NCBI GenBank assembly: GCA_903922465.1
Contig: CAIXTV010000111.1
Coordinates: 1 to 35,465 of the forward strand
DNA from: an uncultured bacterium
GTDB taxonomy: Bacteria > Bacteroidota > Bacteroidia > Bacteroidales > CAIXTV01
Length of the DNA stretch: 35,465 nucleotides
Reading direction: 5' to 3'
Below the pieces are notes generated by a model that was not told the DNA's origin, searched no databases, and saw only the letters and a program-made list of their open reading frames with translations. Position 1 is the stretch's first letter, and each line of letters begins with the position of its first letter. The position numbers and the translations under genes were made by a program. Positions 5,753-35,399 of the stretch are shown here, one piece after another.

Positions 5753-6256
5753 GGTTTACATATTTACAATAAATTAAATTTTGCGAGCAATATGTAATTA
5801 CGAAGATGCCTCCCATGAAGTTTTTCCGACCAAAGTTGTTTACATAAAGGCTTCCCATAACATTTTTCTGCCATTCTTGGTTTACGTAAATGCTTCCCAT
5901 AACATTTTTCTGCCATTCTTGGTTTACATAAATGCTTCCCATAACATTTTTCTGCCATTCTTGGTTTACGTATTGGCAATAAATTAAGTTTTACAGCCTT
6001 TCTTGGTTATACTTATGTCGAAAAAACTTCATGGAACGACCTTGTGGGTTTCACTTATGAGGTAAAAATAAATTCGCACGAGGTGTTGGGTTACATTTAT
6101 GGCCGAAAAATAAATTCGCACGAGGTGTTGGGTTACACTTATAGCTGTAAATTAAATTTTCAGGCTTTTCTGCATTTACATTATGGCATAAAATTAATTT
6201 CAACCGAAATGATGGCTTATCATTCTGATGCAAAATTTCGCTTTGCAGATAATGAC
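5753..6256. repeat. Tandem array of twelve 42-bp units
   Basis: Units start every 42 bp from 5753 (5795, 5837, 5879, 5921, 5963, 6005, 6047, 6089, 6131, 6173, 6215) with no indel. Units at 5837, 5879 and 5921 are nearly identical, as are those at 6047 and 6089; the rest are divergent but keep GGTTTAC or GGTTACA near the start and a T/A-rich middle. In the frame of 5753 every unit translates to 14 residues of a common pattern (for example GLHIYNKLNFASNM, GLRIGNKLSFTAFL, GYTYSCKLNFQAFL), but units 2 to 5 carry in-frame stops. Because 42 is a multiple of 3, several short frames stay open by chance on both strands. I read it as a non-coding or decayed coding repeat. The frame from 6044 (GTG) to 6289 is open and would give 81 residues, but I do not call it a gene. 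Confidence 0.85.
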
Positions 6257-17077: not shown

Positions 17078-17159
17078 CCCAATCCCCTTTGCCCACAACA
17101 CACCACCCCAAATTCACTCTCAATTATTAATTATTCATTCCCCATTATTAATTATCATC

Positions 17160-17969: not shown

Positions 17970-18902
17970 TCAAACAATCACCGAATTCAGCTCAATATGC
18001 TCACGAGTAACCACTGTTAAAGCATTAATCTTCAACAACGAGCCCTTTGTCACAACTTGGTTATAATCACAAGCCTTCATTCCTCTCATGCTATACTTTC
18101 CTTCAGCATTCGTGTAAACTGTTTTTGTCCGACCTCCATTAACTGGAATCAATTTCACTTTCGCCTTGTTCACAGGCTTTCCGTCTTCAGTGCAAACCCT
18201 ACCAAACACCTCAGTCTGAGCACCATCATGCCGCATATAAGAAATCAGTCTCGAAGCTGTATAATCTTTTGCTTTAGCAGGTTTAGAAATTTTATAAATC
18301 AACTTACCTGCAACCAACGTAGGCGAAACATAAGTCCTCCAATAATCATTATAAAGCACCATATCACTCTCAGTTGTGCTCGAGCGCGTTCCTCTTAAGC
18401 TTGTTTGTAAAAGATTATCCACACTAATAACTTCAAAAGCTTCCACCAAAGCTTCTTGCATTTCCTCAGTCATCCCCACATCATCGAGCGCATCATCATT
18501 ACGAGCTATATTTTGATTAAGAACGTTTCCATCCAACAGCAATTGCTCAGTATCTCCTAAATCAATTGACACACGAACAGCATGAAGACCCATATCTTTC
18601 ACTGCTACATCCAAACTGCTACCTGCACTCTTAAAATAAACCTCCGCTGAATTCAACAAGGCCCTCAAACCGTAGCTATTAGTGAGCACTCTAAAGGTAA
18701 CCATCTTCAATTGTCCAATAATTACAACTGGCGACACAACGTTTATCACTTCCTGTGTTTTTAATAAAAAGTCCTCCGGAAAGGGCGAATTAAACGCTAA
18801 GTATCGCGCAAAGTCATTTGCGTCCCTAACTAAGCTATTATGAACAGAAGCACCCAACACAGAGAGTTCTTCAATCCTACATTGAAACAATTTTTTCTCC
18901 AT
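17970..18902 (-). CDS. Protein of unknown function with C-terminal carboxypeptidase-regulatory-like domain
   Basis: 310 residues. The N-terminal 225 residues are helical-looking and unlike any family I recognise (landmarks: RDANDFARYLAFNSPFPEDF and DDVGMTEEMQEALVEAFEV). From about residue 230 there is a beta-sandwich of the carboxypeptidase regulatory/CnaB type (TEVFGRVCTEDGKPVNKAKV, then TNAEGKYSMRG), which is normally extracellular. Here there is no signal peptide and no membrane segment, so it appears cytosolic or exported by another route. It is a single gene with its own promoter, convergent with the DUF2148 gene and adjacent to the 21-bp satellite. The function is unknown. Confidence 0.8.
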   Translation of the reverse strand: MEKKLFQCRIEELSVLGASVHNSLVRDANDFARYLAFNSPFPEDFLLKTQEVINVVSPVVIIGQLKMVTFRVLTNSYGLRALLNSAEVYFKSAGSSLDVAVKDMGLHAVRVSIDLGDTEQLLLDGNVLNQNIARNDDALDDVGMTEEMQEALVEAFEVISVDNLLQTSLRGTRSSTTESDMVLYNDYWRTYVSPTLVAGKLIYKISKPAKAKDYTASRLISYMRHDGAQTEVFGRVCTEDGKPVNKAKVKLIPVNGGRTKTVYTNAEGKYSMRGMKACDYNQVVTKGSLLKINALTVVTREHIELNSVIV

Positions 18903-18987: not shown

Positions 18988-19146
18988 CATTTTTATGTTT
19001 TTTTTTATGATGTTATGAATTTAAACTCATCCTATATGCTCAAGTCCTGTAAACATAATAACTCCTAATCATTCTTGCCCTGCTAATTCTTACATCCTCC
19101 CTAACTTTACTTTAATTCAACCCAACTCTTTTCACCAATACTTAAT

Positions 19147-19255
19147 CCCTACAGGAATAATGGTTTCTAGAAATCCCAAGTCCCTCATGGTCGTAATATT
19201 TGTAGAAACACCATTTGCCATAAAATTCAAGCCCCCTACGTGCGAAATATTTCAA
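19147..19255. repeat. Degenerate intergenic repeat, three related copies
   Basis: Copies begin TCCCTACAGG (19147), TCCCTCATGG (19181) and CCCCCTACGTG (about 19232). The first two are followed by AATAATGG/GTAATATT and then TCTAGAAA/TGTAGAAAC, and the third by GAAATATTTC. The pattern resembles (CCCTACGGG, then a TAGAAA run) dispersed repeats common in Bacteroidota intergenic DNA, from general knowledge. The rest of 18988-19363 shows no gene. Confidence 0.4.
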
Positions 19256-19363
19256 AACACACAGCAATTAAGACACTCTATATCAATTAAAACTTTACCT
19301 CCCACAACAATAATTCCTAATCTAAAACCAATTATATAATAAACGATAACAAAGAAGAACACC

Positions 19364-20371
19364 ATGAATCTAATTCTTCAAAAACATGCAAAAGCAATGG
19401 AATATATTGAATAAATCATTTCAATTCTATAACCCCCAAAGTCTATTGCTAAACAAATTATAATTCCTCATGAGCTACTAACACCCATTATGAAGCAAAT
19501 CACTTCAACACTAAAGCTACTAATGACTAGTAGCAAACAAATTACTTCAACATAGGAGCTAATAATCCAACCTGCCAAGCTAATTATTCAAACTTAGGAA
19601 TTAATTATTTAAGATGAGGAATAAATCATCCCACCTTACGAACAAATCATTCAACCTTAGTAGCTTATTATTCAACCTTAGGAATTAATTATTTAAGATG
19701 AAGAACAAATCATCCCACTTTACGAACAAATCATTCAACCTTAGTAGCTAATTATTCAAACTTAGGAATTAATTATTTAAGATGAAGAACAAATCATACC
19801 CCCTTACGAACAAATCATTCAACCTTAGTAGCTAATTATTCAACCTTAGGAATTAATTATTTAAGATGAGGAACAAATCATACCACCTTACGAACAAATC
19901 ATTCAACCTTAGTAGCTAATTATTCAACCTTAGGAATTAATTATTTAAGATGAGGAACAAATCATACCCCCTTACGAACAAATTATACCACCTTAGTAGC
20001 TAATTATTCAAACTTAGGAATTAATTATTTAAGATGAAGAACAAATCATACCACCTTACGAACAAATTATACCACCTTAGTAGCTAATTATTCAAACTTA
20101 GGAATTAATTATTTAAGATGAGGAACAAATCATCCCACCTTACGAACAAATTATACCACCTTAGTAGCTAATTATTCAACCTTACGAACTAATTATTTAA
20201 GATGAGGAATAAATCATACCCCCTTACGAACAAATCATTCAACCTTAGTAGCTAATTATTCAACCTTACGAACTAATTATTTAAGATGAAGAATAAATCA
20301 TACCCCCTTACGAACAAATTATACCACCTTAGTAGCTAATTATTCAACCTTACGAACTAATTATTCAACCT
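19364..20371. repeat. 21-bp satellite with 84-bp higher-order repeat
   Basis: A strictly 21-bp monomer, core AATTATTCAACCT preceded by TA-G-A(A/G)C. From 19595 to 20350 four distinguishable monomer types follow in fixed order and repeat nine times as an 84-bp block (starts 19595, 19679, 19763, 19847, 19931, 20015, 20099, 20183, 20267): type 2 AATTATTTAAGAT, type 3 AATCATACCCCCT or AATCATCCCACCT, type 4 AATCATTCAACCT or AATTATACCACCT, and type 1 GTAGCTAATTATTCAA. A final monomer (20351-20371) closes the array. About eleven decayed monomers in the same 21-bp register run leftward to about 19364. Stops occur in every frame I read, and there are no unique spacers, so it is neither coding nor CRISPR. 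Confidence 0.95.
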
Positions 20372-20393: not shown

Positions 20394-20434
20394 GGTTAGA
20401 ATTGACAACTTTTTTCAAGTTGTCAATTCTAACC
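20394..20434. repeat. Perfect 18-bp inverted repeat at the satellite boundary
   Basis: GGTTAGAATTGACAACTT (20394-20411) and its exact complement AAGTTGTCAATTCTAACC (20417-20434) are separated by the 5-nt loop TTTTC. It sits 22 bp after the last satellite monomer and 49 bp beyond the cysH stop. On the minus strand only a weak T-rich tail (TTGTGTTTA) follows, so termination of cysH is possible but not certain. Confidence 0.8.
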
Positions 20435-20483: not shown

Positions 20484-21179
20484 CTATTTCCCGTGCAATC
20501 CACATTCTTTTTTACCCTGCTCCCACCACCATCTGCCCGAGCGAATATCTTCTCCCTCCTTCACCGCTATCGTACAAGGCTCGCAGCCTATGCTCGGAAA
20601 CAATTTATCATGCAACGCATTATATGGAATATGATGTAGCTTGATGAAATCCCAAACTTCTTGCAATGTCCAATACAATAAAGGGTTTACTTTAATAACC
20701 TGATACACTTCATCCCACTCAAAAAGCTCCATTGCTGCGCGATTAACCGATTGCTCTGCCCTAAGGCCCGTTATCCAGATGGATGTATGCTGTAAGGCTC
20801 TCTGTAAAGGCTCTATCTTACGGTTAAAACAGCATAGCTTACGGTTTTCTATATTTTGATAAAACAGATTAACCCCTCTCTCTTTTATCATAGGCTCTAC
20901 CCTACGATAATCAGGGAAGTAAATTTCCATCGGAACCTTATAACGCAAGCGTGTCTTTTCGATAACCTCATACGTCTCCTCAAACATCCGTCCCGTGTCA
21001 ATTGTAAATAACCTAACGGAAATAGCACCTTCAGCAATCAAATGTGTTATCACCTGATCCTCGGCACCCATGCTCGACGAAAAGGCGACTCTGCCTTCAA
21101 AATCATTTGAAAGCGCCGCAAGCAAGTCTTTAATACTATATGTCGTATATTTTTCTTTTAGTTCAGCTATTGTTTTCAT
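20484..21179 (-). CDS. cysH: Adenylyl-sulfate (APS) reductase, assimilatory
   Basis: 231 residues. It reduces activated sulfate to sulfite with thioredoxin. The PP-loop type N-terminal region has AFSSSMGAEDQVI and FTIDTGRMFEETY. The cysteine pairs Cys116-Cys117 (KLCCFNRK) and Cys199/Cys202 (CEPC) are those that hold the [4Fe-4S] cluster of APS-type reductases, and Cys226 in KKECGLH is the catalytic residue. The cluster cysteines favour APS over PAPS as substrate (inference). Its start ATG overlaps the stop of the upstream metallo-hydrolase gene by 4 bp, so translation is probably coupled. No other sulfate-assimilation gene is in the window. Confidence 0.92.
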   Translation of the reverse strand: MKTIAELKEKYTTYSIKDLLAALSNDFEGRVAFSSSMGAEDQVITHLIAEGAISVRLFTIDTGRMFEETYEVIEKTRLRYKVPMEIYFPDYRRVEPMIKERGVNLFYQNIENRKLCCFNRKIEPLQRALQHTSIWITGLRAEQSVNRAAMELFEWDEVYQVIKVNPLLYWTLQEVWDFIKLHHIPYNALHDKLFPSIGCEPCTIAVKEGEDIRSGRWWWEQGKKECGLHGK

Positions 21180-34826: not shown

Positions 34827-34882
34827 AGTTATAAGTTATAAGTTATGAATTATGAATTATGAGTTATGAGTTATGAGTTTTG
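34827..34882. repeat. Heptamer tandem repeat downstream of purL
   Basis: Eight 7-bp units (AGTTATA, AGTTATG and AATTATG variants, last AGTTTTG) run without gap, starting 8 bp after the purL stop. Confidence 0.85.
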
Positions 34883-34910: not shown

Positions 34911-35270
34911 GCAATAACACATTAACCCTTTAACTTATTTATCCTTCAGTTAATTAGTGATGTATTTATTCCTTAATGTTTCTTTGAGCCTTAGCGTCTT
35001 GATGGCAAAGAAAGAATGCCACTAAGACTCTAAGAACTCTAAGATTCACAAAGAGCTCTTAATAAGCAATAACACATTAACCTATTAACCCATAGTTATT
35101 TGGCGATTTAGTGAATTGTTGATTTAGTGATGTATTTTCTTCCTTAGCGTTTCTTTGAGCCTTTGCGTCTTGGTGGCAAAGAAAGAATGCCACTAAGGCT
35201 CTAAAAGCACCAAGATTCACAAAGGGCTACTTAATAAGCAAGAACACATTAACCCAATAACCCATTCAAT
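34911..35270. repeat. Two tandem copies (and start of a third) of a ~155-172-bp element with palindromic core
   Basis: Copies start at 34911, 35066 and 35238 with GCAATAACACATTAACC (third: GCAAGAACACATTAACC). Each full copy contains an imperfect palindromic core (34971-35056 and 35142-35227): a left arm with TTTCTTTGAGCC and GCGTCTTG(A/G)TGGC, the spacer AAAGAAAGAAT, and a right arm GCCACTAAG(A/G)CTCTAA and AAGATTCACAAAG. Copies are close but not identical. Such palindromic elements with CTTTGAGCC/CTTAGCGTCTT motifs are widespread in bacterial intergenic DNA (general knowledge). No coding capacity. Confidence 0.8.
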
Positions 35271-35294: not shown

Positions 35295-35399
35295 AGTTCA
35301 AATTCATATATTTTCCTTGCAAAATATTATTTTTTCCTTACAAAATGTCATATTTTCCTTACAAAATATCATATTTTCCTTACAAAATATCATAAAATG
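35295..35399. repeat. 21-bp AT-rich tandem repeat
   Basis: Units of exactly 21 bp start at 35316, 35337, 35358 and 35379 with CTTGCAAAAT or CTTACAAAAT and usually ATATTTTC at the end; a decayed unit begins at 35295. It lies near the window edge. The rest of 35400-35465 shows nothing recognised. Confidence 0.8.

Follow-up and report, generated by a model that had tools for sequence, protein, structure and literature searches.

The locus and its surroundings

In the window, by which we mean the whole 35,465-nt stretch of DNA that was analyzed, positions 19364 to 20371 hold a non-coding tandem repeat that lies between two genes and is composed of 21-bp units in blocks of four. Its left neighbor (17970-18902, minus strand) encodes 310 aa with a carboxypeptidase-regulatory-like domain (Pfam PF13620), its start facing the array region, and its right neighbor (20484-21179, minus strand) has a PAPS-reductase domain (phosphoadenosine phosphosulfate reductase, cysH-like; Pfam PF01507, E 3.8e-43). 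A metallo-beta-lactamase fold gene and a lytB gene were also found among the eight nearby genes searched with Pfam. The end of the cysH-like gene is followed after about 50 bp by a perfect 18-bp hairpin with a 5-nt loop (20394-20434, minus strand), which folds to -35 kcal/mol and is probably the terminator of that gene; hairpins are not a general companion of arrays of this type, as they flank 5 of the 53 that we sampled. RNA hairpins within the arrays were considered and rejected, the mean z being about -0.4 to -0.5 overall, a folding tendency only slightly above that of column-shuffled versions, and +0.8 and +0.3, not above them at all, for the array at 19364-20371. Neither Rfam families nor tRNAs were found in the window.

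The decayed end of the array is adjoined by a dispersed repeat (19068-19311) about 250 bp long, which matches eight places in the genome, five of the matches being almost full length. The copy on contig 217 is 75% identical and is not followed by an array. This repeat contains GTCCC...TTTGTAGAAACA-like motifs and may be REP-like. Elsewhere, three loci (L067:1555-1709, the start of L086, and L123:177-327) share an intergenic sequence of 150 bp with 96-99% identity, and dispersed repeats are therefore common in this genome. The array itself is not a REP/BIME-type dispersed repeat, since its sequence occurs at a single place in the genome if matches of about 25 bp are disregarded. A search of 294 other genomes of the order, the closest genomes searched being of that same order, and of plasmids, phages and IMG/VR found no relative of the array sequence.

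Other arrays of the same class are present in the window, all detected by Tandem Repeats Finder (TRF). Two adjacent 42/84-bp arrays (5798-6158) have diverged copies that also lie side by side on contig 113 (L097, 13840-14350; about 69-85% identity), which suggests that array pairs can move or duplicate as neighbors. There are also an intergenic two-copy 21-bp array (17112-17155) and an intergenic four-copy 21-bp array (35308-35394), the latter with diverged copies at 34987-35093 and on contig 104. On contig 114, an array that has AACTCAT heptamers at one of its ends occurs twice, together with about 150 bp of flanking sequence, in inverted orientation (L098:3628-4056 and L098:14274-14709); the two copies are 91.5% alike over 436 bp, and the duplicated unit is possibly a mobile intergenic segment. 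Many intergenic sites carry runs of AACTCAT/AATTCAT heptamers, at 34845-34879 of the window and at about 15 other places in the genome, and a reversed control pattern gave none. These heptamers stand beside both contig 114 copies but were rejected as general borders of 21-bp arrays, given that one of five sampled runs lay within 400 bp of such an array, compared to 14% of random non-coding positions.

Architecture of the array

TRF reported a period of 84 at 19578-20365, with 9.4 copies, 95% matches, 0% indels and a score of 1310. In agreement with a sequence-only reading of this DNA, comparison of the blocks and monomers resolved nine 84-bp blocks (19595-20350), a copy number that rests on a fragmented assembly of 312 contigs. 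Each block is made of the monomers TAGGAATTAATTATTTAAGAT, GAGGAACAAATCATACCACCT, TACGAACAAATCATTCAACCT and TAGTAGCTAATTATTCAACCT, in the same order in all nine blocks and with no indel. The blocks are followed by one extra monomer of mixed types (20351-20371), right after which unrelated sequence starts, so that the right end is abrupt, as had also been described. The AT-rich tract AATTAATTATTTAA, in contrast, had been assigned to the second monomer type and is actually in the monomer at 19595. Among the nine blocks, 12 of the 84 columns are variable. The four monomer types have 12 to 17 of 21 bases in common, and monomers of the same type are far more alike than monomers of different types, which upholds the claim of a higher-order structure.

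The region to the left of the blocks (19364-19594) contains, as previously noted, about eleven decayed 21-mers that keep the same register, with a score of 12.2 of 21 in register vs 7.3 out of register. It had been taken for the remains of an older monomeric array, and this part of the claim did not hold. Identity in this region was 0.52 at lag 42 and 0.53 at lag 84, compared to an expected 0.30 (the observed values were reached in 0 of 2000 shuffles), and because these were the strongest lags, the older array was mainly an array of 42-bp dimers. No indel was found over the approximately 1 kb of the array, although the left part is about half diverged.

No array of at least 60 bp arose in Markov-resampled DNA of the same composition. 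With a tandem unit in the range of about 10-100 bp, several copies and high identity, the array is a minisatellite, and its fixed monomer order, block identity above monomer identity, local homogenization and decayed edge are those of a higher-order repeat. It is not a CRISPR array, as the whole unit repeats and there are no unique spacers.

Could the assembly itself have created the array, or set its copy number? The genome is fragmented, and 9 of the 53 sampled arrays of the 21-bp type reach contig ends. However, the blocks carry distinct variants, and the same unit length recurs on many contigs as well as in independent genomes from this order. We thus regard an artefact as very unlikely.

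A genome-wide class of 21-bp arrays

The array belongs to a genome-wide class, overlooked by the sequence-only reading, whose members have in common their unit length and, for the most part, not their sequence. We counted non-coding arrays (TRF) that were at least 60 bp long and had a period of at least 10 in a genome sample of 965 kb (937 kb without N) that favors contig starts. Of 68 such arrays in the 937 kb, 45 had periods of 21, 42, 63, 84 or 126 bp (25, 10, 6, 3 and 1 arrays, respectively). Compared to the 25 at 21 bp, each of the neighboring periods of 18-20 and 22-24 bp was represented by about one array or none, and by two at most. A lag scan independent of TRF gave 48 stretches at lag 21 and one each at lags 20 and 22, as well as 50 at lag 42 and 37 at lag 63. 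The preference was already present among short duplications of fewer than 2.6 copies, a count that may take in pieces of longer, decayed arrays: 11 had a unit of 21 bp and 7 of 42 bp, with at most one at each of 18-20 and 22-24 bp. Scaled up to the 5.02-Mb genome, these numbers correspond to about 240 arrays; the estimate is rough, given the excess of contig starts in the sample. Unit sequences were mostly unrelated between arrays, with only a few pairs above shuffled similarity and a few small families.

Other families of the order had a weaker peak at 21 bp (12 arrays at 21, 2 at 20 and 1 at 22). Phylum-level controls consisted of two plasmids. One of them, Salinibacter ruber plasmid pSR61 (L213), is dense in short tandem repeats and has its own preferred unit, with a peak at 15-17 bp and none at 21 bp; the method is therefore not biased toward 21. 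The genes flanking the arrays showed no preferred orientation (17 co-directional, 7 divergent and 6 convergent pairs vs 81, 34 and 21 in the background).

Since 21 is a multiple of three, the unit could also be a coding or once-coding heptapeptide repeat of seven codons. One frame of the decayed part looks heptad-like by eye, and among the genome's genuine coding arrays some do have 21-bp units. On the other hand, every block contains stop codons, and 35 intergenic arrays had no 3-bp signal, either in their composition or in their variability (z at most 1.0), whereas 18 open-frame arrays had z values of 2.6 to 6.4; the 3-bp signal seen when all arrays were pooled came only from the open-frame arrays. 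A coding origin is accordingly among the least probable of the explanations that we considered.

Alternatively, 21 bp may represent three heptamers, derived from the heptamer arrays of Cyanobacteria and Bacteroidetes. Such arrays are common in this genome, the 21-bp arrays of relatives in the order, above all one genome (G024), have strong lag-7 identity (z 5.8), and a 7-bp component is seen in the T content of the genome's own arrays (z 3.5). Yet the genome's own 35 intergenic arrays lack lag-7 identity (z -0.4), which is at chance in the array described here, too. Furthermore, where TRF periods exceed 21, they are multiples of that number and not of 7 (no 35, 49, 56 or 70). We therefore consider descent from heptamers unlikely, although it deserves more weight than a coding origin.

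Helical phasing and candidate functions

A unit of 21 bp corresponds to two helical turns, and two of the proposed roles depend on this. The AT-rich tracts recur every 21 bp, as would be expected if the array were an intrinsically curved element of phased A-tracts. The prediction of the sequence-only reading that the array is curved was not borne out: predicted curvature was 3.4 degrees per turn vs a window mean of 3.1, which is not above that of column-shuffled versions. Twenty other arrays had a mean z of -0.5, and A+T content carried no 10.5-bp signal. A curved element thus seems highly improbable.

The second of these roles is to bind a nucleoid, partition or replication protein at sites spaced two helical turns apart, all of them on the same face. 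Iteron and partition arrays are likewise composed of direct repeats of about 20 bp in register. The exact 21-bp register and the absence of indels over about 1 kb, with the register kept even in the decayed part, are in favor of such a role, and indels per mismatch were somewhat, though not significantly, lower in arrays of the 21-bp type than in others (0.091 vs 0.161, p 0.2). However, the existence of dozens of arrays with unrelated sequences makes a sequence-specific binder unlikely, and no Rep, ParB or ParA-like gene was seen beside the array (Pfam on eight nearby genes; other ORFs of the window by eye), both of which set it apart from known iteron and partition arrays. Moreover, the 10.5-bp signal was weak in purine content (z 2.0) and absent from A and T content. 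The earlier suggestion of a partition, iteron or nucleoid-protein array thus found no positive evidence here, the neighboring genes being those named above. We consider a binding array an improbable explanation, about on a par with descent from heptamers and ahead of the other alternatives discussed above.

Local amplification and a possible two-turn ruler

The blocks bear traces of how they may have arisen. Neighboring blocks are the most similar, with 4.1 differences vs 5.5 in random order (p 0.012), and differences climb to 9 at the greatest separation, 8. Linked changes at columns 54, 57 and 59 show that segments have been exchanged between monomer types. Together, block similarity and exchanged segments are what local amplification of whole blocks, accompanied by some conversion, would produce, in line with the block-wise expansion from an older array that had been proposed from the sequence.

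We favor the explanation that the array is a mostly neutral minisatellite between genes, that repeated local amplification gave rise to its higher-order blocks, and that it is one member of the genome-wide 21-bp class; we consider this probable, and a neutral satellite was also one of the options named at first reading. Arrays would be started by a tandem duplication process that favors 21-bp units, as the peak among two-copy repeats suggests. From at least two copies on, whole units could be gained and lost through slippage or when sister copies exchange unequally. Once monomers had diverged, blocks of several monomers (42, 63 or 84 bp) may have been amplified into higher-order repeats, a step supported by the block similarity and segment exchange, and old edge parts escape homogenization and decay by substitution, as is seen to the left of 19595.

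As to the unit length, our leading guess, made from the number alone, is a ruler that spans two complete turns of the helix (2 x 10.5), the simplest physical match, and that would reside in the duplication or exchange machinery and not in the sequence. A duplication or recombination process in this lineage may measure exactly two helical turns, so that duplications of any sequence would acquire 21-bp units and grow into higher-order intergenic arrays; we put this forward tentatively, as a possibility with the odds against it. Neither a ruler nor an enzyme that makes such duplications was found. If the 21-bp bias were purely mutational, coding arrays should show it to the same extent, and multiples of 21 made up 8 of 15 coding arrays compared to 45 of 68 non-coding ones. 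The shares do not differ significantly (p 0.38), which would favor a mutational cause, but several of the coding cases are weak and few are cleanly 21-bp. While the evidence requires no function for the array itself, the lack of indels over about 1 kb counts against neutrality because neutral DNA should gather indels, and this could reflect selection on the register.

Relation to known repeat systems

What is new here is a genome-wide, sequence-independent unit length of 21 bp. We found no report of such a unit length, or of bacterial higher-order repeats, in the open literature; subscription papers lay mostly outside this search, so novelty is not proven. A sharp unit length, independent of sequence and common to many unrelated arrays, is difficult to reconcile with ordinary slippage; it suggests that a physical ruler acts when tandem duplications start or are maintained. 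The arrays also have practical consequences, as they break assemblies and, 21 being a multiple of three, create false open frames.

Bacterial intergenic minisatellites are known as VNTR loci, used for example in MLVA typing of Yersinia pestis (PMC3689786). The arrays described here resemble these loci in having head-to-tail non-coding units of tens of bases, with near-identical copies and no indels, and differ from them in that one unit length mostly prevails in the genome, the sequences differ, and the monomers form ordered blocks. Intergenic heptamer repeats of the TAACTGA type are known in Beggiatoaceae, Cyanobacteria and five Bacteroidetes, and in Bacteroidetes some long heptamer arrays occupy extended intergenic regions, have no counterpart there in relatives and are places where contigs break (PMC4679880). 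Many intergenic arrays per genome are common to both systems, but those repeats have a 7-bp unit and one common sequence, whereas here the unit is 21 bp, the sequences are unrelated and heptamer identity is lacking.

A structural parallel to the blocks themselves comes from eukaryotes. In higher-order repeats of the alpha-satellite type, diverged monomers follow one another in a fixed order, the blocks are much more similar than the monomers, an edge is decayed and homogenization is local, and all four traits are also found in the bacterial array at 19364-20371. It differs from alpha-satellites in that its blocks span less than 1 kb, its host is bacterial, it has no centromere role and its unit is not nucleosomal. 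These arrays offer a small-scale bacterial system for studying the evolution of higher-order repeats, which is known mainly from centromeres.
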